DNA of 64,000 nucleotides from Aphanomyces cochlioides (Eukaryota > Oomycota > Saprolegniomycetes > Saprolegniales > Verrucalvaceae). The notes beneath the pieces are model-generated. The model was not told the origin of the DNA, made no database searches, and saw only the letters and a program-made list of their open reading frames with translations. The translations under genes were made by a program, and so were the position numbers. The stretch is from the NCBI GenBank assembly GCA_019828595.1, contig JAHQRK010000003.1:3348001-3412000 (forward strand), given 5' to 3'. This document shows positions 10,368 to 57,237 of the stretch, in pieces (positions within the stretch are counted from its first letter, which is position 1; each line of letters opens with the position of its first letter).

Positions 10368-10439
10368 GCGCGAGTAGCTCAGTGGTAGAGCGTCAGATTG
10401 CAGCTCTGAGGGTCACTGGTTCGAACCCGGTCTGGCGCT
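10368..10439 (+). tRNA. tRNA-Cys(GCA), array L unit 8
   Basis: Exact repeat; GTACGCAG upstream variant. Confidence 0.95.
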
Positions 10440-10819
10440 GTCTTTTACCTTTTATACTTTTAAAAAATTCTATTTTTACTCTTGACTCCTAGCTTCATCC
10501 TTTCTAGTTGTATCACTTACACGTCGAGTCTCTATCTCCAGCAAAGACATATGGATATATATGAAAAATATGCACATTGATGTATGGTATCTCCTCAAAC
10601 GGACACGAAGACCATCAATTCGATTTGAAAAACCAAGCTGGCTGGAGTCCTCCTGGTATCGATTTTCGAAAAACTAACCGTCGGGATAGGTGGGTGTATG
10701 TAGTATTCCTTTTTGCAAGTGCAAAGCTACAATACAGGTTGTAGTGGGGCGAATATAAACGGAGTGACTCGGGTGAAGGATTGACAAAAGTGTGCATGTT
10801 GATTCGAAAGATAAAAAGC

Positions 10820-10891
10820 TGAGGAGTAAGGGAGTTGAACCCTTGACCGTTGGGACTGGAATCCAACGCTCTACCACTGAGCTAACCCCCC
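10820..10891 (-). tRNA. tRNA-Trp(CCA), array L unit 8
   Basis: Convergent partner of the Cys gene at 10368. Confidence 0.88.
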
Positions 10892-11517
10892 GTTCATACT
10901 ATTTACACTTCTCTCATTCTACACACCATCTCTCTGCATTTACATCTTCCTTAACCTGCAACCATACATTCACTCACAGAAACCATACAAAGGCTACGTA
11001 CAGTCATATCAGTACATCTTCTACTCATTGCACATTTATTGCACACTTGCCAAAATTCCTTTTGTAGCCCATCAAACTCAAATGAAAGACAAACGATACC
11101 TTTCTGTATGACCTCAAATTCTCTAGTTCGAACTTACCTGGGGTCACCACAACCCAAACTTTTTCCGTTCAACACGGCAAGTACTCTATAAGAGTTGTAA
11201 TGTGGAAGTTATGGACTTCTGTGGATACAGGCACTAAATAACATGTCAACTTTAGAATAGATCAGATCTTTCTATTCATGTGTACTTGTCACAAGCGTCT
11301 AAACGTTGCAAACCTCCAACCAAAAGTCTCCGATGCAAATGAGAAATAGCTTTCATAGTTCATCCGAGAAACGAGATAATATTGAGTGGTGTGACTATGT
11401 ATGAAGTGTGCTGAGCAGGCAAAATAACGGTGCTTTGTGGTACGCAGGGAGTATTGATTCGGAGGTGAAAATGTCAAAGTGTATCTGTGGCTCATTAGTC
11501 GGTGTGCACTACACACA

Positions 11518-11589
11518 GCGCGAGTAGCTCAGTGGTAGAGCGTCAGATTGCAGCTCTGAGGGTCACTGGTTCGAACCCGGTCTGGCGCT
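11518..11589 (+). tRNA. tRNA-Cys(GCA), array L unit 9
   Basis: Exact repeat; GTACGCAG upstream variant. Confidence 0.95.
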
Positions 11590-11969
11590 GTCTTTTACCT
11601 TTTATACTTTTAAAAAATTCTATTTTTACTCTTGACTCCTAGCTTCATCCTTTCTAGTTGTATCACTTACACGTCGAGTCTCTATCTCCAGCAAAGACAT
11701 ATGGATATATATGAAAAATATGCACATTGATGTATGGTATCTCCTCAAACGGACACGAAGACCATCAATTCGATTTGAAAAACCAAGCTGGCTGGAGTCC
11801 TCCTGGTATCGATTTTCGAAAAACTAACCGTCGGGATAGGTGGGTGTATGTAGTATTCCTTTTTGCAAGTGCAAAGCTACAATACAGGTTGTAGTGGGGC
11901 GAATATAAACGGAGTGACTCGGGTGAAGGATTGACAAAAGTGTGCATGTTGATTCGAAAGATAAAAAGC

Positions 11970-12041
11970 TGAGGAGTAAGGGAGTTGAACCCTTGACCGT
12001 TGGGACTGGAATCCAACGCTCTACCACTGAGCTAACCCCCC
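11970..12041 (-). tRNA. tRNA-Trp(CCA), array L unit 9
   Basis: Convergent partner of the Cys gene at 11518. The spacer on its 5' side carries the TA insertion near 12157. Confidence 0.88.
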
Positions 12042-12668
12042 GTTCATACTATTTACACTTCTCTCATTCTACACACCATCTCTCTGCATTTACATCTTCC
12101 TTAACCTGCAACCATACATTCACTCACAGAAACCATACAAAGGCTACGTACAGTCATATATCAGTACATCTTCTACTCATTGCACATTTATTGCACACTT
12201 GCCAAAATTCCTTTTGTAGCCCATCAAACTCAAATGAAAGACAAACGATACCTTTCTGTATGACCTCAAATTCTCTAGTTCGAACTTACCTGGGGTCACC
12301 ACAACCCAAACTTTTTCCGTTCAACACGGCAAGTACTCTATAAGAGTTGTAATGTGGAAGTTATGGACTTCTGTGGATACAGGCACTAAATAACATGTCA
12401 ACTTTAGAATAGATCAGATCTTTCTATTCATGTGTACTTGTCACAAGCGTCTAAACGTTGCAAACCTCCAACCAAAAGTCTCCGATGCAAATGAGAAATA
12501 GCTTTCATAGTTCATCCGAGAAACGAGATAATATTGAGTGGTGTGACTATGTATGAAGTGTGCTGAGCAGGCAAAATAACGGTGCTTTGTGGTACGCAGG
12601 GAGTATTGATTCGGAGGTGAAAATGTCAAAGTGTATCTGTGGCTCATTAGTCGGTGTGCACTAACACA

Positions 12669-12740
12669 GCGCGAGTAGCTCAGTGGTAGAGCGTCAGATT
12701 GCAGCTCTGAGGGTCACTGGTTCGAACCCGGTCTGGCGCT
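12669..12740 (+). tRNA. tRNA-Cys(GCA), array L unit 10
   Basis: Gene body unchanged. The sequence just upstream is CACTAACACA instead of CACTACACACA (one base shorter), so spacing to unit 9 is 1151 bp. Confidence 0.95.
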
Positions 12741-13120
12741 GTCTTTTACCTTTTATACTTTTAAAAAATTCTATTTTTACTCTTGACTCCTAGCTTCATC
12801 CTTTCTAGTTGTATCACTTACACGTCGAGTCTCTATCTCCAGCAAAGACATATGGATATATATGAAAAATATGCACATTGATGTATGGTATCTCCTCAAA
12901 CGGACACGAAGACCATCAATTCGATTTGAAAAACCAAGCTGGCTGGAGTCCTCCTGGTATCGATTTTCGAAAAACTAACCGTCGGGATAGGTGGGTGTAT
13001 GTAGTATTCCTTTTTGCAAGTGCAAAGCTACAATACAGGTTGTAGTGGGGCGAATATAAACGGAGTGACTCGGGTGAAGGATTGACAAAAGTGTGCATGT
13101 TGATTCGAAAGATAAAAAGC

Positions 13121-13192
13121 TGAGGAGTAAGGGAGTTGAACCCTTGACCGTTGGGACTGGAATCCAACGCTCTACCACTGAGCTAACCCCCC
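13121..13192 (-). tRNA. tRNA-Trp(CCA), array L unit 10
   Basis: Convergent partner of the Cys gene at 12669. Confidence 0.88.
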
Positions 13193-13820
13193 GTTCATAC
13201 TATTTACACTTCTCTCATTCTACACACCATCTCTCTGCATTTACATCTTCCTTAACCTGCAACCATACATTCACTCACAGAAACCATACAAAGGCTACGT
13301 ACAGTCATATCAGTACATCTTCTACTCATTGCACATTTATTGCACACTTGCCAAAATTCCTTTTGTAGCCCATCAAACTCAAATGAAAGACAAACGATAC
13401 CTTTCTGTATGACCTCAAATTCTCTAGTTCGAACTTACCTGGGGTCACCACAACCCAAACTTTTTCCGTTCAACACGGCAAGTACTCTATAAGAGTTGTA
13501 ATGTGGAAGTTATGGACTTCTGTGGATACAGGCACTAAATAACATGTCAACTTTAGAATAGATCAGATCTTTCTATTCATGTGTACTTGTCACAAGCGTC
13601 TAAACGTTGCAAACCTCCAACCAAAAGTCTCCGATGCAAATGAGAAATAGCTTTTAGTTAGTTCATCCGAGAAACGAGATAATATTGAGTGGTGTGACTA
13701 TGTATGAAGTGTGCTGAGCAGGCAAAATAACGGTGCTTTGTGGTACGCAGGGAGTATTGATTCGGAGGTGAAAATGTCAAAGTGTATCTGTGGCTCATTA
13801 GTCGGTGTGCACTACACACA

Positions 13821-13892
13821 GCGCGAGTAGCTCAGTGGTAGAGCGTCAGATTGCAGCTCTGAGGGTCACTGGTTCGAACCCGGTCTGGCGCT
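13821..13892 (+). tRNA. tRNA-Cys(GCA), array L unit 11
   Basis: Gene body unchanged; upstream spacer has a 2-bp change near 13653, giving a 1152-bp unit. Confidence 0.95.
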
Positions 13893-14272
13893 GTCTTTTA
13901 CCTTTTATACTTTTAAAAAATTCTATTTTTACTCTTGACTCCTAGCTTCATCCTTTCTAGTTGTATCACTTACACGTCGAGTCTCTATCTCCAGCAAAGA
14001 CATATGGATATATATGAAAAATATGCACATTGATGTATGGTATCTCCTCAAACGGACACGAAGACCATCAATTCGATTTGAAAAACCAAGCTGGCTGGAG
14101 TCCTCCTGGTATCGATTTTCGAAAAACTAACCGTCGGGATAGGTGGGTGTATGTAGTATTCCTTTTTGCAAGTGCAAAGCTACAATACAGGTTGTAGTGG
14201 GGCGAATATAAACGGAGTGACTCGGGTGAAGGATTGACAAAAGTGTGCATGTTGATTCGAAAGATAAAAAGC

Positions 14273-14344
14273 TGAGGAGTAAGGGAGTTGAACCCTTGAC
14301 CGTTGGGACTGGAATCCAACGCTCTACCACTGAGCTAACCCCCC
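14273..14344 (-). tRNA. tRNA-Trp(CCA), array L unit 11
   Basis: Convergent partner of the Cys gene at 13821. Confidence 0.88.
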
Positions 14345-14970
14345 GTTCATACTATTTACACTTCTCTCATTCTACACACCATCTCTCTGCATTTACATCT
14401 TCCTTAACCTGCAACCATACATTCACTCACAGAAACCATACAAAGGCTACGTACAGTCATATCAGTACATCTTCTACTCATTGCACATTTATTGCACACT
14501 TGCCAAAATTCCTTTTGTAGCCCATCAAACTCAAATGAAAGACAAACGATACCTTTCTGTATGACCTCAAATTCTCTAGTTCGAACTTACCTGGGGTCAC
14601 CACAACCCAAACTTTTTCCGTTCAACACGGCAAGTACTCTATAAGAGTTGTAATGTGGAAGTTATGGACTTCTGTGGATACAGGCACTAAATAACATGTC
14701 AACTTTAGAATAGATCAGATCTTTCTATTCATGTGTACTTGTCACAAGCGTCTAAACGTTGCAAACCTCCAACCAAAAGTCTCCGATGCAAATGAGAAAT
14801 AGCTTTCATAGTTCATCCGAGAAACGAGATAATATTGAGTGGTGTGACTATGTATGAAGTGTGCTGAGCAGGCAAAATAACGGTGCTTTGTGGTACGCAG
14901 GGAGTATTGATTCGGAGGTGAAAATGTCAAAGTGTATCTGTGGCTCATTAGTCGGTGTGCACTACACACA

Positions 14971-15042
14971 GCGCGAGTAGCTCAGTGGTAGAGCGTCAGA
15001 TTGCAGCTCTGAGGGTCACTGGTTCGAACCCGGTCTGGCGCT
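14971..15042 (+). tRNA. tRNA-Cys(GCA), array L unit 12
   Basis: Exact repeat; GTACGCAG upstream variant. Confidence 0.95.
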
Positions 15043-15422
15043 GTCTTTTACCTTTTATACTTTTAAAAAATTCTATTTTTACTCTTGACTCCTAGCTTCA
15101 TCCTTTCTAGTTGTATCACTTACACGTCGAGTCTCTATCTCCAGCAAAGACATATGGATATATATGAAAAATATGCACATTGATGTATGGTATCTCCTCA
15201 AACGGACACGAAGACCATCAATTCGATTTGAAAAACCAAGCTGGCTGGAGTCCTCCTGGTATCGATTTTCGAAAAACTAACCGTCGGGATAGGTGGGTGT
15301 ATGTAGTATTCCTTTTTGCAAGTGCAAAGCTACAATACAGGTTGTAGTGGGGCGAATATAAACGGAGTGACTCGGGTGAAGGATTGACAAAAGTGTGCAT
15401 GTTGATTCGAAAGATAAAAAGC

Positions 15423-15494
15423 TGAGGAGTAAGGGAGTTGAACCCTTGACCGTTGGGACTGGAATCCAACGCTCTACCACTGAGCTAACCCCCC
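15423..15494 (-). tRNA. tRNA-Trp(CCA), array L unit 12
   Basis: Convergent partner of the Cys gene at 14971. Confidence 0.88.
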
Positions 15495-16120
15495 GTTCAT
15501 ACTATTTACACTTCTCTCATTCTACACACCATCTCTCTGCATTTACATCTTCCTTAACCTGCAACCATACATTCACTCACAGAAACCATACAAAGGCTAC
15601 GTACAGTCATATCAGTACATCTTCTACTCATTGCACATTTATTGCACACTTGCCAAAATTCCTTTTGTAGCCCATCAAACTCAAATGAAAGACAAACGAT
15701 ACCTTTCTGTATGACCTCAAATTCTCTAGTTCGAACTTACCTGGGATCACCACAACCCAAACTTTTTCCGTTCAACACGGCAAGTACTCTATTAGAGTTG
15801 TAATGTGGAAGTTATGGACTTCTGTGGATACAGGCACTAAATAACATGTCAACTTTAGAATAGATCAGATCTTTCTATTCATGTGTACTTGTCACAAGCG
15901 TCTAAACGTTGCAAACCTCCAACCAAAAGTCTCCGATGCAAATGAGAAATAGCTTTCATAGTTCATCCGAGAAACGAGATAATATTGAGTGGTGTGACTA
16001 TGTATGAAGTGTGCTGAGCAGGCAAAATAACGGTGCTTTGTGGTATGTAGGGAGTATTGATTCGGAGGTGAAAATGTCAAAGTGTATCTGTGGCTCATTA
16101 GTCGGTGTGCACTACACACA

Positions 16121-16192
16121 GCGCGAGTAGCTCAGTGGTAGAGCGTCAGATTGCAGCTCTGAGGGTCACTGGTTCGAACCCGGTCTGGCGCT
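16121..16192 (+). tRNA. tRNA-Cys(GCA), array L unit 13
   Basis: Gene body unchanged; the only array L unit whose upstream spacer carries GGGATCACC, CTATTAGAG and GTATGTAG together, the haplotype common in array M. Confidence 0.95.
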
Positions 16193-16572
16193 GTCTTTTA
16201 CCTTTTATACTTTTAAAAAATTCTATTTTTACTCTTGACTCCTAGCTTCATCCTTTCTAGTTGTATCACTTACACGTCGAGTCTCTATCTCCAGCAAAGA
16301 CATATGGATATATATGAAAAATATGCACATTGATGTATGGTATCTCCTCAAACGGACACGAAGACCATCAATTCGATTTGAAAAACCAAGCTGGCTGGAG
16401 TCCTCCTGGTATCGATTTTCGAAAAACTAACCGTCGGGATAGGTGGGTGTATGTAGTATTCCTTTTTGCAAGTGCAAAGCTACAATACAGGTTGTAGTGG
16501 GGCGAATATAAACGGAGTGACTCGGGTGAAGGATTGACAAAAGTGTGCATGTTGATTCGAAAGATAAAAAGC

Positions 16573-16644
16573 TGAGGAGTAAGGGAGTTGAACCCTTGAC
16601 CGTTGGGACTGGAATCCAACGCTCTACCACTGAGCTAACCCCCC
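16573..16644 (-). tRNA. tRNA-Trp(CCA), complete copy flanking retrotransposon copy 2
   Basis: The gene body is complete and normal, but its 5' flank is now the retrotransposon 5' UTR instead of the array spacer. Nucleotides 1-17 (16628-16644) are the left half of the target-site duplication; the right half is 25236-25252. The C run at the junction is 11 long rather than 6. An A-rich segment of the element (AAAAGTAAAAGT on the minus strand, about 10-25 bp upstream of the gene) may serve TFIIIB placement; that is inference. Confidence 0.88.
16628..16644. repeat. Left target-site duplication of copy 2 (17 bp)
   Basis: CACTGAGCTAACCCCCC, identical to 25236-25252 on the other side of the element. 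It equals nucleotides 17 to 1 of tRNA-Trp, so the staggered cut spans the D loop to the tRNA gene start. Exact length is slightly ambiguous because of the C run. Confidence 0.9.
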
Positions 16645-16709
16645 CCCCCACTTTTACTTTTGCCGTCAACCACTCAAGTCAACAGCCAAAGTAAGGTACC
16701 CCTCGACCA
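16645..16709 (+). promoter_or_regulatory. Short 5' UTR of copy 2
   Basis: About 65 nt separate the end of the tRNA-Trp gene from the ORF1 ATG. The stretch (C run, then ACTTTTACTTTTGCCGTC and following bases) is conserved in copy 3. With so little room, transcription must start from an internal promoter or use the divergent region beside the tRNA gene. Confidence 0.5.
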
Positions 16710-19268
16710 ATGTCGTCTACCGCCGCCGCCGATGCTGCCAAGCACTCTATGCCGAATGTCTCCTCCGTGAAGTACCTTGACCCTTCTGGTCCACCAGTGG
16801 ACGAGCAGGGTCCGACGCCGTCTCCTTCCGCCGACGCTCAAGATCGCCTTCTCCACGCACCCGCCAACGAAATCTCTGTCGAGTCCAACGCGAGCGAGTC
16901 CGACAAGCGCCATGAAGATGGATTCCACCACGCCGAAGACGCCGCCACGTCCCAACAAGCCCCTCCACCCGACCAAGCTAGCGACCCTGCGCCACGCCGA
17001 GTTATCATCGATCTCTCCGATCCCGTTGGTGCTCCGCCGCGCGAGAGTCCTCCTCAAAAAGAACAAGAACAACCCAAGAAAAAATCCTATGCCGACCTAC
17101 TCAAGGGCGATCAAGACAATGCACCTCCGAAACGAGTCAAGACTGTCGTCAACCGCCCCAAGCCGGAGTACCTCAGCAAACTCATCGACCTCGCGAGCCA
17201 AGAAGATGCAAACGAGGAAGACTTGCTTGAGGCCATCTCGCAGGCGACCCCAGTCAAGGTCAAGAAGGCCACCACCACGATGTGGATCGAAACTGATGGA
17301 GCCTTCTCCGACAAGGCCTATACCAACGAGAAGATCATCGACGCGATCTTCAAGGAAAACCAAGATGCCGAATGGGCGTACCTCCTATTGGAATTCGTTC
17401 AACTCAACAAAACGCGCACCGGCGACATCGTCGTGTCCATTACCTCGCGCGACGTGAAGGACATGCTCGCTGGGAAAACCATTTCGATCTTCGGCAAGGA
17501 GTTCACGATTCCAGTGCCTACGGTCAAGGTCAGCGGATCATCTCAAGAATCGAACGACCCGATGGACAAGTTCTTCTTTATGGACATCGTGGGCATTCGA
17601 TTCAACTTCGACTCTGCCAAGCTCGTCCGTTTGCTACGACGTTTGAAGATGAAGCCAATCTTTCAAGCGTATCGGCAACACATACCCAATGTTTCCTGCC
17701 AGTCCAATGTGTGGCGCGTCTACTTCTTGGAGGCAGAAGTCCCCAAACAACTAGTCGTCAACGGTCATCCAGCAGACCGACTGAAGATGGATGGTGTGGC
17801 CTACAATGTGTTTGTCAAGAACTTCCAACGCTCGGCTTCTCGCACCTCTTCTGCTTCACCTCATTGCTTGGACTTGGACCACGCCGCAGCGTTGATGCAA
17901 AGTCCGGAGAAGCAAGTGCCGGAACCAGAAGGACAAGGCGCAGTGGACCAAGGAGCCAAACAAACCAAACGCGCCAAAGTCAACGAGGAAAAACAACACG
18001 AAGAACCTATAATCCAAGGTCAGGGTGAAGAGTCACAAAATATGGAAGTGATCCCTCCTCATACCGAGCCAAAATCAAACGAAGAACCTTTACTCCAGGG
18101 TAGAGAGGAAGAGCCACAAGACATGGAAGTCACACCTCTAGAGACCGAGCCAATTGTTCCTCCTGCTTCATCGCAGTTGAGCACCAACATGGAAGTCGAT
18201 CCAAAATCAACTAAACGCACCACGAGTCAATCTGTCGACGAAGATGGATTTGTTGTACCTCGTTCGAAGAAGCGAGTAGCCGCTGCACAAGCGTCCCCAT
18301 CATTTGTATCGTGGGCCTCCGACAACTTCTTCAATGCTCTCGCAACCATCGAAGCAACTACTATGCCAGTGGATTCTCAGCATGAAACACCAACTCGTGT
18401 GTACATACCTGCGATCAAGAAGATCCCAGAAGAAAGCTTGAAAGCACGTGACGCCTTCGTGAAGAGGCAACATGTTGTCGACAGCAAGCTTTGCTGGCAC
18501 CCAGACAACCTCACCATGGAGGAGCTTGTCCAAGTGCTCCAAGCCAGCGTTGGGGAAGGAGCTGCCTTCCAACACCACAACCAAGCCAACACCACGGACA
18601 TCTCCGGAACGGAACTTGATGTTGTCGACTACATACGTCGATGCAACGTTGACGGACTCTGGAAAGTCATCCATTCCCACACCCAAAGCATGAACGTCGT
18701 CCTAACCAAGTTAGCCACACATACGTACAGTGATTACCTCAAGGTCGTCCGTATGCACGCTTGGCAACGTTGGATGTCGGCGACACAACTACCAGTGGTC
18801 GATTCATTCACGAATGGATTCAAGTTTACCTTTCAAGAACATCCAAAGTGGACCAGGCTTGAAGAAATCTCAAGCGTCTTGGGTTTCTTCGAGGACGCAC
18901 CAAAACACCCTGCCTTCCCAACGGATCAAGTGGAAGATGCTCTTGCCGCTTTCGAACTATGGATCGCTGTGCAAGCTCCGTTAGTCTTCAGAAATGACGC
19001 ATGGATCTTGTACCTCACTCGTCAGCCAGTAGCGTGGCTTCCAGCCAAACATGGCCGCATGTTGGCACCATCCACGCTCTGGGCTTTGCTGAAGTCGCTG
19101 TTCGGGCAATACTTTGCGGAAGAACTGAATCGTGTGTGCAAAACCGAGATGTCTTCGCGGATATGGCAGCTCAGTATTGATGCCTACCAGCCTACAGACA
19201 GCTCGTTAACAGCATTCGTTGGCAACGACAATACCCGCCTGCAACGCAGGAACAACTTGTTGTACTAA
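16710..19268 (+). CDS. Retrotransposon ORF1 protein, copy 2 (852 aa)
   Basis: The first ORF of the element, by position an ORF1/Gag-like RNA-binding partner of the ORF2 enzyme; no named domain is recognised and no CCHC zinc knuckles are seen. Residues 1-185 are rich in Ser, Pro, Ala and acidic residues and look disordered. Residues 186-372 are a conserved globular region with alternating hydrophobic strands. Residues 373-535 are an acidic linker with two related EEP..QG segments (about 431-445 and 458-472) and a basic motif EDGFVVPRSKKR (511-522) that could be a nuclear signal. Residues 536-852 are a conserved domain of unknown role. The ATG at 16710 matches the copy 3 start. The stop TAA (19266-19268) overlaps the ORF2 frame. 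Confidence 0.88.
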   Translation: MSSTAAADAAKHSMPNVSSVKYLDPSGPPVDEQGPTPSPSADAQDRLLHAPANEISVESNASESDKRHEDGFHHAEDAATSQQAPPPDQASDPAPRRVIIDLSDPVGAPPRESPPQKEQEQPKKKSYADLLKGDQDNAPPKRVKTVVNRPKPEYLSKLIDLASQEDANEEDLLEAISQATPVKVKKATTTMWIETDGAFSDKAYTNEKIIDAIFKENQDAEWAYLLLEFVQLNKTRTGDIVVSITSRDVKDMLAGKTISIFGKEFTIPVPTVKVSGSSQESNDPMDKFFFMDIVGIRFNFDSAKLVRLLRRLKMKPIFQAYRQHIPNVSCQSNVWRVYFLEAEVPKQLVVNGHPADRLKMDGVAYNVFVKNFQRSASRTSSASPHCLDLDHAAALMQSPEKQVPEPEGQGAVDQGAKQTKRAKVNEEKQHEEPIIQGQGEESQNMEVIPPHTEPKSNEEPLLQGREEEPQDMEVTPLETEPIVPPASSQLSTNMEVDPKSTKRTTSQSVDEDGFVVPRSKKRVAAAQASPSFVSWASDNFFNALATIEATTMPVDSQHETPTRVYIPAIKKIPEESLKARDAFVKRQHVVDSKLCWHPDNLTMEELVQVLQASVGEGAAFQHHNQANTTDISGTELDVVDYIRRCNVDGLWKVIHSHTQSMNVVLTKLATHTYSDYLKVVRMHAWQRWMSATQLPVVDSFTNGFKFTFQEHPKWTRLEEISSVLGFFEDAPKHPAFPTDQVEDALAAFELWIAVQAPLVFRNDAWILYLTRQPVAWLPAKHGRMLAPSTLWALLKSLFGQYFAEELNRVCKTEMSSRIWQLSIDAYQPTDSSLTAFVGNDNTRLQRRNNLLY

Positions 19269-22200
19269 GGTCCTCGCGGCTTCAGTGCAGCCAACTTCAT
19301 CGCATCCAAACCAACAACCACCACAGCCAACGTTCCCCAACTCTTCACTTGTCAACTTGTCCATTGTCACGGCCAATATAAATGGCCTTTCGAGAGACAA
19401 TGGAAACCAACTTGTCAACACCATGATCTCACGGAACGAGATCGTTGCCCTACAAGAAACCAAATTTGCCAGTGAGAAGAAATTCTCCACGTTCATGTTT
19501 CACCTTGCTCACGCTCTTGGTCATGACAAGTACTTCATTGCTGCCAATGACCATCGGCTTCTGGGAGGCGAACTTGAACAATACCGATCTGGTGGCGTCG
19601 CCATGATCTTCCAACACACCATCCCTGGCTTCAACACACTTCACCATGAACGCCAATACGACATCGAAGATCGCTACATGGTGGTCAGTTCAATGTGGGG
19701 AGACGACCCCATCTACTACCACAATGTCTACGCACCTGTTGAAGACAGCGAGCGAGACGCCTTCTTTGATGCCTTGCCACGAAACTTCCCAATCGCGTCC
19801 AAACATGTCGTCATGGGAGACTTCAATCTCCCGATGGATCGAGCATTGGACTCAAGAGGCTCCACCACCTCAAACCACCAAGTCAACAGGCAGTCTTGTT
19901 TCGCGTGGCTACAAGAACTTGAGGTCGTCGACGCCTGGAGAACTTTCAACCCCACGAAGAAGGTTTACTCTTCGCCGAAGGGACTCAATCGGCTTGATTA
20001 CATCTTCCTTCAGCCTGCCTTGTGTCGAATGTATTCTGCTGGCGAGTACTTCGAGCCTACAGCAAACACAGATCACTTATGGCACAAAGTGGAGCTCCAA
20101 CCAGTAAAAACAACACGCGTCAAGAGCTACTGGAAGCTGCCAAAAGAACTTTTGGCGATCCGAGAAGTTCGAGAGGCGATTGTGTCCGAAGCCAGCGAAC
20201 TGCTCGAGCGACTGCGGACATCGAACCAGCCAGGGGTCTTGTGGACTCAATGGCAACGCCGCACCAAACGCTTTCTTCAGAAATATCACGCTCGAATGGT
20301 AACGAACCAAAAGAACGCACTTCAAGAGGCCAAGATCCAATGGCTACAAGCTCAGTTACGACATCATCACGGACGCCTCACCGAAGCAGCTCTCAATACT
20401 GCAAGGACACAGTATGAGACCAAGAAGCAAGACTTGAAACAGCACCACGCGGACTTGAGTTTTGACTTCCACGCCACCCAAAACGAGGCACCGACAAGTC
20501 ATTTCTTTCGCAAACCACGCGCTCGGCAGTTTTCCATACCTATCGTCGAATGTTACGACGAACAAGGAAACGTCACTGCCATACCAGAGGAAATTCATGC
20601 AGCATTCAATCGTCATTGGTCGGCGGTGATGAGTGAAGGCGACTTTCAACCTACAAGTCCACAAGAGAAGTCACAGTTCTTGAATGTACTTGAGAGAAAC
20701 TTACCCCAAGACGATTCAGAGGCTTTGGATGCGCCGTTGACGATCGAAGAGCTAGCGCAATCCATCAAGACGATGAATCCTCACAAGTCACCTGGAATAG
20801 ATGGGTTCTCGGCTGGCTTTTACCAGCTACATCCAGCCTTGTTTGGCGAAATCTTGTCGGTAGTCTTCAACCACCAACTTCAGGAAGGCATCATGTTGGC
20901 CTCGCAACGCTGGTCCGCCATATCGTTGCTCTTCAAAGGCGGCGATCGACGCAACCCAGCGAACTATCGACCCATTGCCTTGATTCCAGTTGAAGTCAAA
21001 GTCCTATCGCGCGCGTTAGCGTATCGAATGTCACAAGTCTTACCGTTGATCGTCCAACCCGAACAAAATGGCTTCGTCAAAGGCAGGCGGATCCATGATC
21101 ATGTCATCTTTCTGCAAGACCTTCAACATCATTGCACCACCTTCAATCAAGAAGCCTACGCGATGTTCCTGGACTTTGAAAAGGCCTATGATCGTGTGAA
21201 TCATGAGTTCATGTTCGCCGTTTTGAAGAAATTCAATGTTGGAGATCACTTCATTGACTGGGTTAAGTTACTCTACAACCAAACTCAAGTCAGTTTGAAC
21301 ATCAATGGCAGACTTACCGATCCATTCTATCCATCGCGAGGAGTCAAGCAAGGCGATCCGTTGTCTTCGATGCTTTTCGTCTTGACGATAGAACCGCTCG
21401 CTCAAATGCTTCGCAATCATCCCGAGTATGGTTACGCTTTCTCGGACTCTGGGATCGCTTCCGTTCTTCTCTTCGCCGACGACACATCGCTCATCTCCAG
21501 CTCCGTGGGCGACTTGGAAGAACAGCTTAAGCTCGTCGACGAGTTTTGCCGTCACTCTGGAGCAAAACTCAATCGCAGTAAGAGCAAAGTCTTGACGCTA
21601 GACAACAATCAATCAGTATTCCAACATCCAAGGTTGAACATGGTACCAAGTGGAACGCCAGTGAAATATCTTGGGATTGAACTGGGACACCAATTGGATC
21701 CTATGCTTCAAATCAATGCAATCAGCGATAAGTTTTACAAGTCGTTTACCACGTGGGCGTGTCGAGCAAGAACCCTCAAAGGCAGGCGGTTGCTTGTGAA
21801 AACGATGAACCTATCACAGCTTTGGCATTACACGATGGTGCTACCGATACCAGACAATACCGTGCGAAAATGGCAGTCTATGGTCAACAAGTTTGTCATG
21901 AGTCGACGCACGCAAGCCGAAGACAAGTATTTGGCCCTTGCTCCAAGTGGCTTGATCCATGACTCGAAGACGGGCTTCAAAGTGCCGCATATTGCTTCAG
22001 TGATTCGAAAACAAAGAGTCACTCGTCTTCAACTCCTAGTCCAAGCTGATCAAGAAGAGCCTCCACAATGGGCAATCTTACCGACAGATCGCTTGAGTCG
22101 TTGCATGTATCCATACTCTCGAGTGACAAATTGGGACTTCATGATGTATCATCCTAGCCCAAACAATAAGCTCGTCCAGTTCAAGTTGCTCTCACCGTTT

Positions 22201-23391
22201 TGGCGCAATGTCTGGAAGCAATGGGCTCAAATTCCAATGACAATGAAGACACCACACGAGCCTACGCTGAGTCAGATGACACAAATGCCATTGTGGATGT
22301 CGTCGCACCCTCTCTTTCAAGTCCCGGGTCGAGACGGGATATCGTCGCTTGCAATCACGCTTCAAAACCATCGCGACTGGTACAGACACCTTGCTCAGAG
22401 AAGCATACACTGCCTTGAAGACTTGTTGACTCCAGGTCGAACGTGGCCAACCTACGATGAGTTTCGTGAGTCGATGGAAGACCACCTAGATCACTTCGTC
22501 GAAGAATTACCTGTCCCGACATCCTTCAAGCACTTTTACAAGCTGGTGACGCTGATTGCAACGAATGTTTGGACTCAAGCCAACAAGCGGCTAGACGCCC
22601 CGGTTGAAAACGATCCTAGTCCGCAAACGGTGATTTCATATCGACAAGGAGATGTCGACGTACCGTTCAAGTCGTGGACAACGAAAATCATCAAGCGAGT
22701 GAGCTTCCATGCTCCTTTGTTAACGCGGCCGCATCCCTTCCACTCTAGCACACGTGAGACTCGAGCGAAAATCGCCAAATACCTTTCACATTTTGTCAAG
22801 CCTTTTGCCAGTCTTGTGACGCCAGTTCAAGCAGATCTATGGACGCGAATTCTCTACGACATCATCCCAGTGGGCAATAAATTCAAGTACTAGGAGGCCA
22901 CTGACCCAAGAGCACTTCGATGCTGCTACCCGAATTGTTATGCGCGAGAAACATTGCGGCACTTGTTCATGGAATGCACAATCACACGAGATCTTTGGCT
23001 ACAACATCGTGAGGCATGGAGTTTGTTTGGGGTTCGCTTTACCTGGGAGTGGGTCGAAAACATCGATGCTTTTCAAGTCGCGCAGCGATGGGCTCGATAT
23101 CGAGACGTTCTCCATCGGCTCTGGTTTATGCTTGCTTGCGGCATTCTTCACCTCCTATGGACACACCGAAACAAAGTCAAGTTTGACGGAGCCAAGACAC
23201 CACACTTACCAGCGTTGAACGATGTTGCGTTGACTTTTTGGGCGTCTAATGTCCGCCGATGGCTTCGCCACATTCACGATCAAGACACCTATCAACAGGC
23301 AATGATTATCCTTGGATTGTTAAGACACCGTGGTTCGTACCGCCGATTTTTGAGTAAACATCCCGCAATCTTCAAGTTCAAGTTGGCTTGA
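19264..23391 (+). pseudogene. Retrotransposon ORF2 (APE endonuclease / reverse transcriptase), copy 2, broken by TAG
   Basis: ORF2 nicks target DNA and copies the element RNA there. The endonuclease shows TANING, ALQETKF, GDFN, LDYIF and TDH motifs. The reverse transcriptase shows FLDFEKAYD, GVKQGDPLS, FADDTSL and KYLG. A C-terminal C-x4-C-x7-H-x4-C motif (zf-RVT-like) is encoded near 22922-22978. The frame is open from 19210, in the +1 frame relative to ORF1, with no ATG before the catalytic Asn; the first in-frame ATG falls after it. TAG at 22891-22893 replaces the AAA codon of copy 3 and would remove the zinc-binding tail, although the same frame continues to TGA at 23389-23391. Otherwise roughly nine in ten residues match copy 3 by eye. 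Confidence 0.9.
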
Positions 23392-25235
23392 TTACTCCGG
23401 CTCGATTAGTCAACATGATGGATCTACAAGTTGAAGTGAGATCTTTGTTTGAATTGAAGCAAACTTACCCGCAAGCGCGCCAAAGTTTTGAAGGCAAGTC
23501 CAACCAAGTTGAAATTCAACTACAAAAATCAAGAAAAATCGACAATTCAAGGGTGAATTACGAAATTAAAAAATTGGGCAGCGCTTCGCACAAAATCGGC
23601 GAGGTCTTTCGGAAAGACTTGGTGGTTTTCGCCAACTTCGCTTGAAAAAGCAAGAAAAAAACAAGCTAAGCACAAAAGTCAAGCAAAAACAAAGGAAACA
23701 ACTTACGAAGTTGGTCGAATGGACCTCGGATGGCTGGCCCGGCGTAGCCAATTCCCACCTTCTTGGACGCGCCGACGACGAATCATCGGCGCCAAAATGG
23801 GCGACCGGTCGCAAAAATCGCTCGTTTTCCTAAACAAGTCATACCAACAAGCACGAGATACAAACCAAGCCAAATCGCTGAAGTCTTCCTTGAAGCCCGG
23901 GGCATCCCCTTGAGACAAAGTCCCAAGGGTTGAAAGTCGCGGCCGAAGCCACGACTCGACGGCGGCAAAGTAAAAAGGCAACGCGCCCTCAAGAAGTATC
24001 CGGGTAGGGGGACTACCAACTGGCCTAGGAGCGATCGGAGGTATCCCCCCCTCGTCACACCCCACAGCCAGCTTTTTTCGGCACTCCAAGCGACACGCTG
24101 GCGACTCCACAAAAGCAGAGCCGACTTGGAAAAAAGTCTTCGCGCTTTTCTTCCTTGAACGCCTTGGACGCCTTCTTCTCAAAAGCCAGCCGAATCAAAC
24201 CACGAGCAGAAAGACGGGTGAGGCCCTGCGTCCCGACACTCACGAAGGGACGGAGATTTGACCGCTCGCTATTCGCTCCAGCTGGCTCTTGTTCTTGAAC
24301 GCCTTGAATCTTGTCTTCCTTGAAGCCCATCGCCTTCTTCAGCCTTCGTGTATCGCGGTCGCACCCATCGCACCCATGGCAGATCGCACCCACGGCAAGT
24401 CGCACCCACGGCAAGTCACACGAGCGTCGGCATAGCAAGCGGCAAAAACACGGCAGCACGGACACGGTAGCGGCAACAACGACACGGCACAGCAAGCGAC
24501 CACAGCAGCAGCAGCACGGCACACCAAGCGGCAACAACAGCACAACACGACCACGAACAGCAACTTCAGCGGCCAAACGAAGCAGCAGAGCGACAGCATC
24601 ACGGCGGCATGGCAGCGGCAAAATTGAAAAATGGCCAAGGAACTTTTCAAAACATCCTCAAGGAAGTTCTCCGCCACTCAAATTTTCAAGTCCGGCAAGA
24701 AAAAAATCCAGTGAACTTCCTCTGGCAAGACCATACAAACATCAAGACACGATCAACGACCCAAGAACATGCGACAACAAGGCACCCATGACGACTGCAC
24801 AATCGACGGTGACGCACCAACGTCACGACGATGGCACTTTGCGACAAGAAAAAATCCAGTGGAAGATTAGTTCACACATCATCTGGTGCCAATGGTCCTG
24901 TCCAAGATTAGTCAAAGCAACATGTGGACGTTCTGAAGCCAGTCCAAGATTACTCCACACCCATCTGACGTCGAAGACAAGACAAGTCTGTCCCATGTCC
25001 ACATCACCCAAGACCATTCATGTTGTTACACGACTTGAAGACCACAATCGACAGCACATGCGACGTGTCAAGAAGCCAACTTTTACCTGTATCAACTGAT
25101 ACAACAAAAATCAAGTTTCAAGAGGTAAATCTGCTTGCGTTCAAATCTCACAAGCACCAATATTATTCACTCAAGAGTGATTAATGACGGTCATTATTAT
25201 TTAGCGTATAATTAAATTCAATATACGCGATTGTA
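23392..25235 (+). other. Long 3' UTR of copy 2
   Basis: No credible gene is present. The first 250 bp and everything from about 24137 onward are recognisably homologous to copies 1 and 3. The middle (about 23650-24137) does not align by eye with the corresponding part of copies 1 and 3. A CA/GC-rich low-complexity stretch lies near 24380-24620, and the end (25167-25235) is the hairpin block ending in CGATTGTA. Confidence 0.75.
25167..25235 (+). other. Hairpin-rich 3' terminus of copy 2
   Basis: The same three inverted repeats as in copy 1, the third with a T-to-C change in its A/T-rich interior, then CGATTGTA joined to the tRNA stub. Preservation in a copy whose 3' UTR is otherwise clearly diverged supports function. 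Confidence 0.65.
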
Positions 25236-25252
25236 CACTGAGCTAACCCCCC
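25236..25252 (-). pseudogene. 17-nt 5' stub of tRNA-Trp (right target-site duplication of copy 2)
   Basis: Identical to 16628-16644. It is followed by the normal upstream spacer, so removing the element plus one duplication restores an ordinary array unit. Confidence 0.92.
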
Positions 25253-25878
25253 GTTCATACTATTTACACTTCTCTCATTCTACACACCATCTCTCTGCAT
25301 TTACATCTTCCTTAACCTGCAACCATACATTCACTCACAGAAACCATACAAAGGCTACGTACAGTCATATCAGTACATCTTCTACTCATTGCACATTTAT
25401 TGCACACTTGCCAAAATTCCTTTTGTAGCCCATCAAACTCAAATGAAAGACAAACGATACCTTTCTGTATGACCTCAAATTCTCTAGTTCGAACTTACCT
25501 GGGGTCACCACAACCCAAACTTTTTCCGTTCAACACGGCAAGTACTCTATAAGAGTTGTAATGTGGAAGTTATGGACTTCTGTGGATACAGGCACTAAAT
25601 AACATGTCAACTTTAGAATAGATCAGATCTTTCTATTCATGTGTACTTGTCACAAGCGTCTAAACGTTGCAAACCTCCAACCAAAAGTCTCCGATGCAAA
25701 TGAGAAATAGCTTTCATAGTTCATCCGAGAAACGAGATAATATTGAGTGGTGTGACTATGTATGAAGTGTGCTGAGCAGGCAAAATAACGGTGCTTTGTG
25801 GTACGCAGGGAGTATTGATTCGGAGGTGAAAATGTCAAAGTGTATCTGTGGCTCATTAGTCGGTGTGCACTACACACA

Positions 25879-25950
25879 GCGCGAGTAGCTCAGTGGTAGA
25901 GCGTCAGATTGCAGCTCTGAGGGTCACTGGTTCGAACCCGGTCTGGCGCT
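25879..25950 (+). tRNA. tRNA-Cys(GCA), array M unit 14
   Basis: First Cys gene after copy 2; GTACGCAG upstream variant. Confidence 0.95.
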
Positions 25951-26330
25951 GTCTTTTACCTTTTATACTTTTAAAAAATTCTATTTTTACTCTTGACTCC
26001 TAGCTTCATCCTTTCTAGTTGTATCACTTACACGTCGAGTCTCTATCTCCAGCAAAGACATATGGATATATATGAAAAATATGCACATTGATGTATGGTA
26101 TCTCCTCAAACGGACACGAAGACCATCAATTCGATTTGAAAAACCAAGCTGGCTGGAGTCCTCCTGGTATCGATTTTCGAAAAACTAACCGTCGGGATAG
26201 GTGGGTGTATGTAGTATTCCTTTTTGCAAGTGCAAAGCTACAATACAGGTTGTAGTGGGGCGAATATAAACGGAGTGACTCGGGTGAAGGATTGACAAAA
26301 GTGTGCATGTTGATTCGAAAGATAAAAAGC

Positions 26331-26402
26331 TGAGGAGTAAGGGAGTTGAACCCTTGACCGTTGGGACTGGAATCCAACGCTCTACCACTGAGCTAACCCC
26401 CC
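26331..26402 (-). tRNA. tRNA-Trp(CCA), array M unit 14
   Basis: Convergent partner of the Cys gene at 25879. Confidence 0.88.
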
Positions 26403-27028
26403 GTTCATACTATTTACACTTCTCTCATTCTACACACCATCTCTCTGCATTTACATCTTCCTTAACCTGCAACCATACATTCACTCACAGAAACCATACA
26501 AAGGCTACGTACAGTCATATCAGTACATCTTCTACTCATTGCACATTTATTGCACACTTGCCAAAATTCCTTTTGTAGCCCATCAAACTCAAATGAAAGA
26601 CAAACGATACCTTTCTGTATGACCTCAAATTCTCTAGTTCGAACTTACCTGGGGTCACCACAACCCAAACTTTTTCCGTTCAACACGGCAAGTACTCTAT
26701 AAGAGTTGTAATGTGGAAGTTATGGACTTCTGTGGATACAGGCACTAAATAACATGTCAACTTTAGAATAGATCAGATCTTTCTATTCATGTGTACTTGT
26801 CACAAGCGTCTAAACGTTGCAAACCTCCAACCAAAAGTCTCCGATGCAAATGAGAAATAGCTTTCATAGTTCATCCGAGAAACGAGATAATATTGAGTGG
26901 TGTGACTATGTATGAAGTGTGCTGAGCAGGCAAAATAACGGTGCTTTGTGGTATGTAGGGAGTATTGATTCGGAGGTGAAAATGTCAAAGTGTATCTGTG
27001 GCTCATTAGTCGGTGTGCACTACACACA

Positions 27029-27100
27029 GCGCGAGTAGCTCAGTGGTAGAGCGTCAGATTGCAGCTCTGAGGGTCACTGGTTCGAACCCGGTCTGGCGCT
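27029..27100 (+). tRNA. tRNA-Cys(GCA), array M unit 15
   Basis: Gene unchanged; GTATGTAG upstream variant. Confidence 0.95.
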
Positions 27101-27480
27101 GTCTTTTACCTTTTATACTTTTAAAAAATTCTATTTTTACTCTTGACTCCTAGCTTCATCCTTTCTAGTTGTATCACTTACACGTCGAGTCTCTATCTCC
27201 AGCAAAGACATATGGATATATATGAAAAATATGCACATTGATGTATGGTATCTCCTCAAACGGACACGAAGACCATCAATTCGATTTGAAAAACCAAGCT
27301 GGCTGGAGTCCTCCTGGTATCGATTTTCGAAAAACTAACCGTCGGGATAGGTGGGTGTATGTAGTATTCCTTTTTGCAAGTGCAAAGCTACAATACAGGT
27401 TGTAGTGGGGCGAATATAAACGGAGTGACTCGGGTGAAGGATTGACAAAAGTGTGCATGTTGATTCGAAAGATAAAAAGC

Positions 27481-27552
27481 TGAGGAGTAAGGGAGTTGAA
27501 CCCTTGACCGTTGGGACTGGAATCCAACGCTCTACCACTGAGCTAACCCCCC
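27481..27552 (-). tRNA. tRNA-Trp(CCA), array M unit 15
   Basis: Convergent partner of the Cys gene at 27029. Confidence 0.88.
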
Positions 27553-28179
27553 GTTCATACTATTTACACTTCTCTCATTCTACACACCATCTCTCTGCAT
27601 TTACATCTTCCTTAACCTGCAACCATACATTCACTCACAGAAACCATACAAAGGCTACGTACAGTCATATCAGTACATCTTCTACTCATTGCACATTTAT
27701 TGCACACTTGCCAAAATTCCTTTTGTAGCCCATCAAACTCAAATGAAAGACAAACGATACCTTTCTGTATGACCTCAAATTCTCTAGTTCGAACTTACCT
27801 GGGGTCACCACAACCCAAACTTTTTCCGTTCAACACGGCAAGTACTCTATAAGAGTTGTAATGTGGAAGTTATGGACTTCTGTGGATACAGGCACTAAAT
27901 AACATGTCAACTTTAGAATAGATCAGATCTTTCTATTCATGTGTACTTGTCACAAGCGTCTAAACGTTGCAAACCTCCAACCAAAAGTCTCCGATGCAAA
28001 TGAGAAATAGCTTTCATAGTTCATCCGAGAAACGAGATAATATTGAGTGGTGTGACTATGTATGAAGTGTGCTGAGCAGGCAAAATAACGGTGCTTTGTG
28101 GTATGTAGGGAGTATTGATTCGGAGGTGAAAATGTCAAAGTGTATCTGTGGCTCATTAGTCGGTGTGTCACTACACACA

Positions 28180-28251
28180 GCGCGAGTAGCTCAGTGGTAG
28201 AGCGTCAGATTGCAGCTCTGAGGGTCACTGGTTCGAACCCGGTCTGGCGCT
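28180..28251 (+). tRNA. tRNA-Cys(GCA), array M unit 16
   Basis: Gene unchanged; one extra base upstream (GTGTGTCACTAC) and the GTATGTAG variant. Confidence 0.95.
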
Positions 28252-28631
28252 GTCTTTTACCTTTTATACTTTTAAAAAATTCTATTTTTACTCTTGACTC
28301 CTAGCTTCATCCTTTCTAGTTGTATCACTTACACGTCGAGTCTCTATCTCCAGCAAAGACATATGGATATATATGAAAAATATGCACATTGATGTATGGT
28401 ATCTCCTCAAACGGACACGAAGACCATCAATTCGATTTGAAAAACCAAGCTGGCTGGAGTCCTCCTGGTATCGATTTTCGAAAAACTAACCGTCGGGATA
28501 GGTGGGTGTATGTAGTATTCCTTTTTGCAAGTGCAAAGCTACAATACAGGTTGTAGTGGGGCGAATATAAACGGAGTGACTCGGGTGAAGGATTGACAAA
28601 AGTGTGCATGTTGATTCGAAAGATAAAAAGC

Positions 28632-28703
28632 TGAGGAGTAAGGGAGTTGAACCCTTGACCGTTGGGACTGGAATCCAACGCTCTACCACTGAGCTAACCC
28701 CCC
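28632..28703 (-). tRNA. tRNA-Trp(CCA), array M unit 16
   Basis: Convergent partner of the Cys gene at 28180. Confidence 0.88.
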
Positions 28704-29329
28704 GTTCATACTATTTACACTTCTCTCATTCTACACACCATCTCTCTGCATTTACATCTTCCTTAACCTGCAACCATACATTCACTCACAGAAACCATAC
28801 AAAGGCTACGTACAGTCATATCAGTACATCTTCTACTCATTGCACATTTATTGCACACTTGCCAAAATTCCTTTTGTAGCCCATCAAACTCAAATGAAAG
28901 ACAAACGATACCTTTCTGTATGACCTCAAATTCTCTAGTTCGAACTTACCTGGGGTCACCACAACCCAAACTTTTTCCGTTCAACACGGCAAGTACTCTA
29001 TAAGAGTTGTAATGTGGAAGTTATGGACTTCTGTGGATACAGGCACTAAATAACATGTCAACTTTAGAATAGATCAGATCTTTCTATTCATGTGTACTTG
29101 TCACAAGCGTCTAAACGTTGCAAACCTCCAACCAAAAGTCTCCGATGCAAATGAGAAATAGCTTTCATAGTTCATCCGAGAAACGAGATAATATTGAGTG
29201 GTGTGACTATGTATGAAGTGTGCTGAGCAGGCAAAATAACGGTGCTTTGTGGTACGCAGGGAGTATTGATTCGGAGGTGAAAATGTCAAAGTGTATCTGT
29301 GGCTCATTAGTCGGTGTGCACTACACACA

Positions 29330-29401
29330 GCGCGAGTAGCTCAGTGGTAGAGCGTCAGATTGCAGCTCTGAGGGTCACTGGTTCGAACCCGGTCTGGCGC
29401 T
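29330..29401 (+). tRNA. tRNA-Cys(GCA), array M unit 17
   Basis: Gene unchanged; GTACGCAG upstream variant. Confidence 0.95.
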
Positions 29402-29780
29402 GTCTTTTACCTTTTATACTTTTAAAAAATTCTATTTTTACTCTTGACTCCTAGCTTCATCCTTTCTAGTTGTATCACTTACACGTCGAGTCTCTATCTC
29501 CAGCAAAGACATATGGATATATATGAAAAATATGCACATTGATGTATGGTATCTCCTCAAACGGACACGAAGACCATCAATTCGATTTGAAAAACCAAGC
29601 TGGCTGGAGTCCTCCTGGTATCGATTTTCGAAAAACTAACCGTCGGGATAGGTGGGTGTATGTAGTATCCTTTTTGCAAGTGCAAAGCTACAATACAGGT
29701 TGTAGTGGGGCGAATATAAACGGAGTGACTCGGGTGAAGGATTGACAAAAGTGTGCATGTTGATTCGAAAGATAAAAAGC

Positions 29781-29852
29781 TGAGGAGTAAGGGAGTTGAA
29801 CCCTTGACCGTTGGGACTGGAATCCAACGCTCTACCACTGAGCTAACCCCCC
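29781..29852 (-). tRNA. tRNA-Trp(CCA), array M unit 17
   Basis: Partner of the Cys gene at 29330; the spacer between them is 379 bp because one T is missing near 29669. Confidence 0.88.
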
Positions 29853-30478
29853 GTTCATACTATTTACACTTCTCTCATTCTACACACCATCTCTCTGCAT
29901 TTACATCTTCCTTAACCTGCAACCATACATTCACTCACAGAAACCATACAAAGGCTACGTACAGTCATATCAGTACATCTTCTACTCATTGCACATTTAT
30001 TGCACACTTGCCAAAATTCCTTTTGTAGCCCATCAAACTCAAATGAAAGACAAACGATACCTTTCTGTATGACCTCAAATTCTCTAGTTCGAACTTACCT
30101 GGGGTCACCACAACCCAAACTTTTTCCGTTCAACACGGCAAGTACTCTATAAGAGTTGTAATGTGGAAGTTATGGACTTCTGTGGATACAGGCACTAAAT
30201 AACATGTCAACTTTAGAATAGATCAGATCTTTCTATTCATGTGTACTTGTCACAAGCGTCTAAACGTTGCAAACCTCCAACCAAAAGTCTCCGATGCAAA
30301 TGAGAAATAGCTTTCATAGTTCATCCGAGAAACGAGATAATATTGAGTGGTGTGACTATGTATGAAGTGTGCTGAGCAGGCAAAATAACGGTGCTTTGTG
30401 GTACGCAGGGAGTATTGATTCGGAGGTGAAAATGTCAAAGTGTATCTGTGGCTCATTAGTCGGTGTGCACTACACACA

Positions 30479-30550
30479 GCGCGAGTAGCTCAGTGGTAGA
30501 GCGTCAGATTGCAGCTCTGAGGGTCACTGGTTCGAACCCGGTCTGGCGCT
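30479..30550 (+). tRNA. tRNA-Cys(GCA), array M unit 18
   Basis: Gene unchanged; GTACGCAG upstream variant. Confidence 0.95.
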
Positions 30551-30930
30551 GTCTTTTACCTTTTATACTTTTAAAAAATTCTATTTTTACTCTTGACTCC
30601 TAGCTTCATCCTTTCTAGTTGTATCACTTACACGTCGAGTCTCTATCTCCAGCAAAGACATATGGATATATATGAAAAATATGCACATTGATGTATGGTA
30701 TCTCCTCAAACGGACACGAAGACCATCAATTCGATTTGAAAAACCAAGCTGGCTGGAGTCCTCCTGGTATCGATTTTCGAAAAACTAACCGTCGGGATAG
30801 GTGGGTGTATGTAGTATTCCTTTTTGCAAGTGCAAAGCTACAATACAGGTTGTAGTGGGGCGAATATAAACGGAGTGACTCGGGTGAAGGATTGACAAAA
30901 GTGTGCATGTTGATTCGAAAGATAAAAAGC

Positions 30931-31002
30931 TGAGGAGTAAGGGAGTTGAACCCTTGACCGTTGGGACTGGAATCCAACGCTCTACCACTGAGCTAACCCC
31001 CC
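30931..31002 (-). tRNA. tRNA-Trp(CCA), array M unit 18
   Basis: Convergent partner of the Cys gene at 30479. Confidence 0.88.
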
Positions 31003-31628
31003 GTTCATACTATTTACACTTCTCTCATTCTACACACCATCTCTCTGCATTTACATCTTCCTTAACCTGCAACCATACATTCACTCACAGAAACCATACA
31101 AAGGCTACGTACAGTCATATCAGTACATCTTCTACTCATTGCACATTTATTGCACACTTGCCAAAATTCCTTTTGTAGCCCATCAAACTCAAATGAAAGA
31201 CAAACGATACCTTTCTGTATGACCTCAAATTCTCTAGTTCGAACTTACCTGGGGTCACCACAACCCAAACTTTTTCCGTTCAACACGGCAAGTACTCTAT
31301 AAGAGTTGTAATGTGGAAGTTATGGACTTCTGTGGATACAGGCACTAAATAACATGTCAACTTTAGAATAGATCAGATCTTTCTATTCATGTGTACTTGT
31401 CACAAGCGTCTAAACGTTGCAAACCTCCAACCAAAAGTCTCCGATGCAAATGAGAAATAGCTTTCATAGTTCATCCGAGAAACGAGATAATATTGAGTGG
31501 TGTGACTATGTATGAAGTGTGCTGAGCAGGCAAAATAACGGTGCTTTGTGGTATGTAGGGAGTATTGATTCGGAGGTGAAAATGTCAAAGTGTATCTGTG
31601 GCTCATTAGTCGGTGTGCACTACACACA

Positions 31629-57137: not shown

Positions 57138-57237
57138 GTTGGTAAGTTTTGAGTTGGGAAACGTGGCTGATGGATGTTGTAGAGGGGGTTGATGGTTGGG
57201 ATGTGTTGCGGTTGCTTGGACTGAGGCCGCGGAGACC

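Follow-up and report, generated by a model that had tools for sequence, protein, structure and literature searches.

Tx1-clade elements of the L1 group and R1 are APE-type retrotransposons that are strictly site-specific and have a precise 3′ end; their targets lie in rDNA, 5S, U2, or spacer sequences, R1 makes a 14-bp target-site duplication (TSD), and their duplications are not known to restore the gene that was entered. The TREs code for an ORF2 of the APE type, and the NeSL-related LIN clade uses a restriction-like endonuclease. Among elements linked to tRNA genes, the dictyostelid TRE5, TRE3, NLTR-A, and NLTR-B insert ~50 bp or 2-6 bp upstream, or ~100 bp downstream, of the gene (PMC5006619, available sections). 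The planarian non-LTR elements LIN15_SM and LIN25_SM are specific for tRNA-Arg and tRNA-Glu genes, according to excerpts of PMC4640811, and excerpts of PMC3706591 describe both Dada DNA transposons, with Perkinsus tRNA-Ile and tRNA-Tyr families whose TSD is TAGCTC in tRNA box A, and Dewa, which inserts in a tRNA-Leu spacer. Among oomycetes, P. infestans has large tRNA arrays, and the available part of the paper reporting them mentions no insertions of the kind described below.

The window analyzed here is a 64,000-nucleotide stretch of the Aphanomyces cochlioides genome (C23:3348001-3412000), and we searched the entire 76.2-Mb assembly of 94 contigs to which it belongs. A protein encoded at L040 of this genome, whose hits are named as U5-snRNP40-like, shows 97% identity to A. 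euteiches and 79% to A. astaci, in both cases across 65% of the query; this agrees with an Aphanomyces host, and Perkinsus, which its Dada transposons had brought into consideration, was set aside on these grounds. The window contains a tandem tRNA-Cys/tRNA-Trp array with a 1150-bp unit (2317..63815, no strand assigned), and ARAGORN predicts 78 tRNA genes in it; Rfam scoring of tRNA candidates genome-wide covered 63 of 5429. The Trp/Cys units are divergent, and their polarity switches at the third of three element copies. Two complete elements interrupt the array, one forward (16650-25238) and one reversed (59832-51200), and 1-1677 belongs to the 3′ part of another.

The first copy, a full-length member of what we call family A (16650..25238, plus strand, 8589 bp, beginning ACTTTTACTTTTGCC and ending CGCGATTGTACAC), has on its 5′ side an intact tRNA-Trp (CCA) gene on the minus strand (16573..16644, nt 1 at 16644; ARAGORN, and Rfam tRNA at 61.7 bits). 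The first 14 nt of this gene appear on the plus strand as their complement, TGAGCTAACCCCCC (16631..16644), and are separated from the element by five extra C residues (16645..16649, plus strand); the same 14 bp recur immediately beyond the 3′ end (25239..25252, plus strand) and are followed by the leader GTTCATACTATTTACAC, as at uninterrupted tRNA-Trp units. The sequence-only reading had taken 16628..25252 as the element, an interval that does hold the full-length copy, the remainder including the target duplication. The second copy (1..1677, plus strand) has its 5′ end beyond the window at C23:3341046, adjoining a tRNA-Cys gene, and at its 3′ end a tRNA-Trp 14-mer (1678..1691, plus strand). 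The third (51200..59832, minus strand, 8633 bp) lies 8 nt from a tRNA-Trp gene on its 5′ side (59841..59912, plus strand; ARAGORN, Rfam 56.1 bits), and its 3′ end adjoins a tRNA-Cys 14-mer (51186..51199, minus strand). The first and third copies are 79-87% identical in four aligned stretches, and family A is therefore diverse. Full-length paired A copies fall into size classes of ~8.59, 8.63, and 9.27 kb, the longest with an extra 0.6-0.7 kb.

Both complete copies code for two large proteins. ORF1 is 852 aa in the first copy (16710..19268, plus strand) and 844 aa in the third (59772-57238, minus strand), and a Pfam search of ORF1 matched nothing. ORF2 of the first copy (19219..22893, plus strand, 1224 aa) is shortened by an in-frame stop relative to that of the third (57137-53109, minus strand, 1342 aa), and Pfam finds both an APE endonuclease and a reverse transcriptase (RT) in each. 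In the first copy these domains span residues 50-269 and 580-822, and the two matches fall in a single ORF (Exo_endo_phos, 8e-13; RVT_1, 6.4e-38). The residues N, E, D-N, D, and H, which we take to be the reference motifs of APE endonucleases, are readable in the ORF2 translation. In a comparison with solved-structure proteins only, the best RT match of ORF2 is L1 ORF2p (E 3.4e-54), with R2 at 5.7e-28; its named top relatives are oomycete proteins. A regular-expression search for zinc-knuckle motifs in ORF1 and ORF2 led to nothing. Close to its 3′ end the first copy also has an ORF of 262 aa (24311-25099) that matches nothing in Pfam and may be untranslated region. With APE upstream of the RT, an RT nearer to L1 than to R2, and a target-site duplication, the element is an APE-type, L1-group non-LTR retrotransposon, and the assignment to APE-type elements made from the sequence alone holds. 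The APE domain sets it apart from the NeSL and LIN elements, which have a restriction-like endonuclease and no APE; RT, APE, and a 14-bp TSD set it apart from Dada, with its DDE transposase and TSD of 6-7 bp; and a junction within the gene after nt 14 sets it apart from the Dictyostelium TREs, which insert at a distance outside the tRNA gene, a difference already drawn in the sequence-only reading.

We searched the genome with the terminal 16-mer AATATACGCGATTGTA at up to one mismatch and read the flanks of all 84 matches, 77 of which are exact; the same pattern read backwards has no match in the genome. CAC stands at the junction in 83 of the 84 3′ ends, the 84th being without it, and in 79 of 84 the junction is followed by the complement of a tRNA or tRNA-like 5′ end. 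After CAC comes TGAGCTA (62), TGAGCCA (8), TAAGCTA (4), TGCGCTA (2), or TGATCTA (2), the last three forms classed as tRNA-like from sequence alone; of the remaining CAC ends, one has a repeated terminus and then a Lys 14-mer, and four are unlike tRNA. The motif T(G/A)AGC(T/C)A is exact in 74 of 84 ends against a chance expectation of about one per 4096 sites, and thus is not there by chance. At nt 8-14 the tRNA-like 14-mers at the junctions read TRGCTCA or something close to it, and they come from nine isotypes (Thr, Phe, Cys, Trp, Met, Asn, Lys, Ile, and Ala) as well as from tRNA-like SINE heads. The targeting system is real and nearly nucleotide-perfect.

Where the element ends and the gene begins follows from genes whose nt 15-17 are other than GTG, beside which lie 14 paired copies (Ala 7, Phe 3, Met 2, Asn 1, Lys 1). 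The triplet before the 5′ 14-mer is ATC at Ala (7), AAC at Phe, Asn, and Met (6), and GAC at Lys (1), and elsewhere GAG (2) or AAG, CGC, or CCT (1 each), with the 3′ junction still CAC in all of these. Since CAC is constant at the 3′ junction while the gene triplet on the 5′ side varies, CAC comes from the element, and the join to the target follows A14 (TAGCTCA^). The other 30 paired copies, with CAC (17), CAG (8), or CAT (5) before the 5′ 14-mer, do not decide the border, and their CAG and CAT are the ends of families B and C sitting there. A join after nt 17 is excluded by the Phe, Asn, Met, and Lys copies with their CAC junction, one after nt 16 by the Ala copies, and one after nt 15 by four copies at SINE-like or unclassified targets without G15. 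It is these four A copies (GAG, AAG, or CCT in place of a triplet with G15), together with the B and C ends, that place the border between A14 and G15; the unlike ends CAG (B) and CAT (C) at the same TGAGC are consistent with a join after A14.

These results sharpen what the sequence-only reading had proposed from the window. Its central claim, one exact insertion point inside box A of more than one type of tRNA gene, stands, and so do its three junctions in tRNA genes, two in tRNA-Trp and one in tRNA-Cys; they lie at 1677/1678 and 25238/25239 (plus strand, Trp) and at 51200/51199 (minus strand, Cys). It had counted CAC as target, however, and had placed the junctions three bases too early and the join after nt 17. 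Nor is TAGCTCAGTGGTAGAGCGT the motif that the targets share: insertions also occur in genes for Ala, Phe, Lys, Ile, Asn, and Met that lack GTGG behind A14, leaving nt 8-14 as the common part. With no other copies in its view, it also missed the 14-bp duplication and the gene restored by it, the piling up of copies, and the further families that use this site. The genome-wide survey of 3′ ends that it had recommended turned up unrelated flanks in only five of the 84 copies, those without a tRNA-like 14-mer.

To examine the other junction, we listed 61 5′ ends (at most two mismatches), fetched 60, and matched 52 of the 60 to a 3′ end, in each case the nearest one on that strand and no more than 10.5 kb away. 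In 49 of the 52 pairs the same 14-mer, tRNA nt 1-14, lies on both sides of the element (47 exact, two with one mismatch), separated from the element's 5′ end by 0-5 extra nucleotides, with none in 23 of the 49; the three pairs without a common 14-mer are two chimeric copies on C23 and one copy with a repeated terminus. As the 14-mer is nt 1-14 of the tRNA, the whole gene is found 5′ of the element, its nt 1 at most a few nucleotides away. ARAGORN finds an intact tRNA gene there in 21 of 60 (Thr 9, Phe 3, Cys 2, Trp 2, Met 2, and one each of Asn, Lys, and Ile), and all 17 of those that were run against Rfam, which was applied to 40 of the 60 5′ flanks, match over the full tRNA model. In 23 of 60 the 5′ side is instead the 3′ end of another element followed by the 14-mer (A 8, B 8, C 7), seven have the start of a tRNA-Ala that diverges after about nt 43, and nine are neither gene nor element end by our calls, several of them resembling tRNA-derived SINE heads with box A and a T-arm. 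One such head (TGGCTCAGTGGTAGAGCACACGCTTCG..., Rfam tRNA 31.5 bits) recurs at loci L109, L121, and L146, and family A sits in its box A too (C15:1154919).

Three of the seven Ala cases (L110, L123, and L125) are called tRNA-Ala by ARAGORN, with Rfam scores of 33-37 bits and odd lengths. Among matches to the tRNA-Ala(AGC) anticodon arm on C20, C24, and C27, 24 of 77 (hand count) diverge directly after GCATGCGGG, at about nt 43, and run on into a wide variety of sequences, among them a tRNA-like SINE head and an apparent shorter start of the same head. These divergences suggest another, 5′-truncating family specific to the tRNA-Ala anticodon arm.

On the 3′ side, the 14-mer runs within 11 nt into the 5′ end of another element in 12 of the 84 A copies (A 9, B or C 3) and is followed by a truncated A in two of 84. 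Copies are stacked, a new copy entering the rebuilt gene and pushing the older one away. The duplication restores the tRNA gene, so the target is renewable and copies accumulate at the same genes.

Two further termini occupy the tRNA site used by family A: that of family B, ...CTCCCCATTGCAG, and a third, C, known from its terminus alone, ...CTCCCCATTGACAT. B has 224 termini at up to one mismatch, and a separate pattern, CTCCCCATTGNNNTGAGC, has 221 matches. Patterns requiring TGAGCYA plus two restricted letters, which show the 14-mers that follow and not how frequent they are, gave 98 B flanks and 115 C flanks, 100 of the latter listed; 33 of the 98 B flanks (hand count) enter an A or a B/C 5′ end. 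A B copy of ~7.3 kb (L184) has a frame-shifted ORF2 that we read in pieces, and these are 42% identical to A ORF2 over 678 residues and 34% over 537. A 54-protein tree, from a quick search and with long branches, comprises the window, two loci, and 50 database hits; A and B fall on opposite sides of one split, which encloses proteins of A. astaci and A. euteiches as well. Box A targeting may therefore be ancestral in that group.

How the copies came to occupy so many tRNA genes admits explanations other than repeated insertion at box A. As SINEs and some LINEs have tRNA-related parts, the 3′ 14-mer could be an element-borne or tRNA-derived tail; we give this almost no credence, as one element end precedes 27 different 14-mers, 49 of 52 pairs match the 5′ side, and within the Trp/Cys array what comes after the 14-mer is the leader found at uninterrupted units. 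Alternatively, one or a few insertions could have been multiplied by tRNA-array duplication and recombination. Repeated flanks on C2, C13, C15, and C78 show elements carried along with array units, and the tRNA labels are clustered on a tree built from 32 of the 84 A ends (710 bp): they change 16 times, the shuffled mean is 20.1, and none of 200 shuffles is as low. Such clustering is what array duplication or local insertion would give, so one or the other also adds copies. The same tree has nine identical 710-bp rows spanning Thr(CGT), Ala, and Thr(AGT) genes and five spanning Ala, Asn, and Trp genes. These copies moved recently between tRNA types, and identity across types means that they do not descend from one duplicated insertion, the outcome that the sequence-only reading had named as fatal to its proposal. 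Among 83 ends there are 56 distinct 42-bp 3′ flanks along with the 27 distinct 14-mers, and three unlike termini (A, B, and C) share one site. Array duplication is contradicted as the origin of the isotype spread, for which we find it very improbable, but it does account for a share of the copies. Rearrangement of arrays has a clear example in the two chimeric copies on C23, one with 5′ Cys and 3′ Trp (3341046-3349674, plus strand) and one with 5′ Trp and 3′ Cys (3407832-3399203, minus strand). The array reads Trp+/Cys- to the left of the window (L002 and L008), Cys+/Trp- between the chimeras, and Trp+/Cys- after 59841, a polarity that fits inversion better than 5′ template jumps as the source of the mixed flanks. 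The chimeras are best explained by inversion of ~50 kb of array (C23:3341046-3407832, including 1-59832 of the window) between oppositely oriented copies; two ordinary insertions in opposite orientation and later recombination between both elements would account for it.

Junctions, duplication, stacking, spread across isotypes, and recent movement between isotypes are direct observations, and we consider it very probable that they have a common explanation in an L1-type element, with APE and RT, whose insertion point is set by Pol III box A. The ORF2 endonuclease would nick the tRNA sense strand after A14 (TRGCTCA^), probably by recognizing the DNA directly, and target-primed reverse transcription would start at this nick, joining the exact 3′ end, CAC, to the complement of nt 14-1. 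The other strand would be cut afterward, 14 bp away, at nt 1 of the tRNA gene, and because the second cut falls at nt 1, the 14-bp duplication would rebuild a complete tRNA gene, presumably transcribed, head-to-head with the 5′ end of the element. The rebuilt gene would be open to a new insertion, stacking copies with orphan 14-mers between them. The 14-bp stagger may be a fixed enzyme property that ends at nt 1 by coincidence and not an adaptation.

A D-arm with TGGCCGA, which we take to be Leu/Ser-like, has 65 pattern matches (candidate tRNA genes), 43 of them (hand count) in C2:555871-644898; this run shows repeated gaps of ~8.8 kb, as if a large insert were present in some units. None of the 84 A ends lies in this stretch, nor any B or C end among those listed, which speaks for recognition of the DNA sequence itself more than for a general Pol III factor, although such a factor may help. 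Recruitment by TFIIIC or TFIIIB, with box A merely the seat of the factor, would account for the near-complete restriction of the targets to tRNA genes and tRNA-like SINE heads, which bind Pol III factors. Such factor-guided routes are described for TRE5-A, Ty3, and DGLT-A (PMC3706591 and PMC5006619, available sections); these elements land in windows outside the gene (PMC5006619), whereas the 3′ end here is nucleotide-exact in 83 of 84 copies. Together with the absence of ends from the TGGCCGA array, this makes recruitment by a factor unlikely as the sole guide, and it could act together with direct reading of box A. Returning to the box A reading, we think it probable that there is a clade of oomycete retrotransposons that recognize box A and cut with a stagger matching its distance from the first nucleotide of the gene. 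Each insertion would then restore the host tRNA gene together with the landing site, providing a renewable, nearly harmless target for stacking.

If so, the site of an APE endonuclease would be a Pol III promoter element common to many tRNA types, and a retrotransposon would rebuild the gene it has entered, by a logic comparable to that of bacterial islands restoring tRNA ends. The system would be a compact model of the evolution of site specificity in L1-type elements and a natural candidate for placing genes without harm, and it may help explain the invasion and rearrangement of oomycete tRNA arrays. The suggestion that such targeting had not been described stands in part: tRNA-gene-specific elements are known (LIN15_SM, LIN25_SM, and Dada), and in our searches of the open-licence PMC literature we found no APE-type element that cuts box A of many isotypes. 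Site-specific APE retrotransposons are likewise known; many-isotype box A targeting with a gene-restoring stagger is new as far as those searches show. LIN15_SM and LIN25_SM, as excerpted, are also non-LTR retrotransposons with tRNA-gene specificity, but for one tRNA type each, whereas the element here is of the APE/L1 type and uses nine isotypes. Dada, from the sections available, shares the target in tRNA box A and differs in its DDE transposase, its TSD of 6-7 bp, and the restriction of each family to its own tRNA type, against RT plus APE, a 14-bp TSD, and many types. The dictyostelid TRE5, TRE3, NLTR-A, and NLTR-B are likewise non-LTR retrotransposons linked to tRNA genes, but insert outside the gene, whereas the element described here inserts inside box A and duplicates nt 1-14. 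It resembles Tx1-clade elements and R1 in being APE-type and site-specific with a precise 3′ end, and R1 also in its 14-bp TSD; unlike theirs, as far as is known, its duplication rebuilds the target gene.
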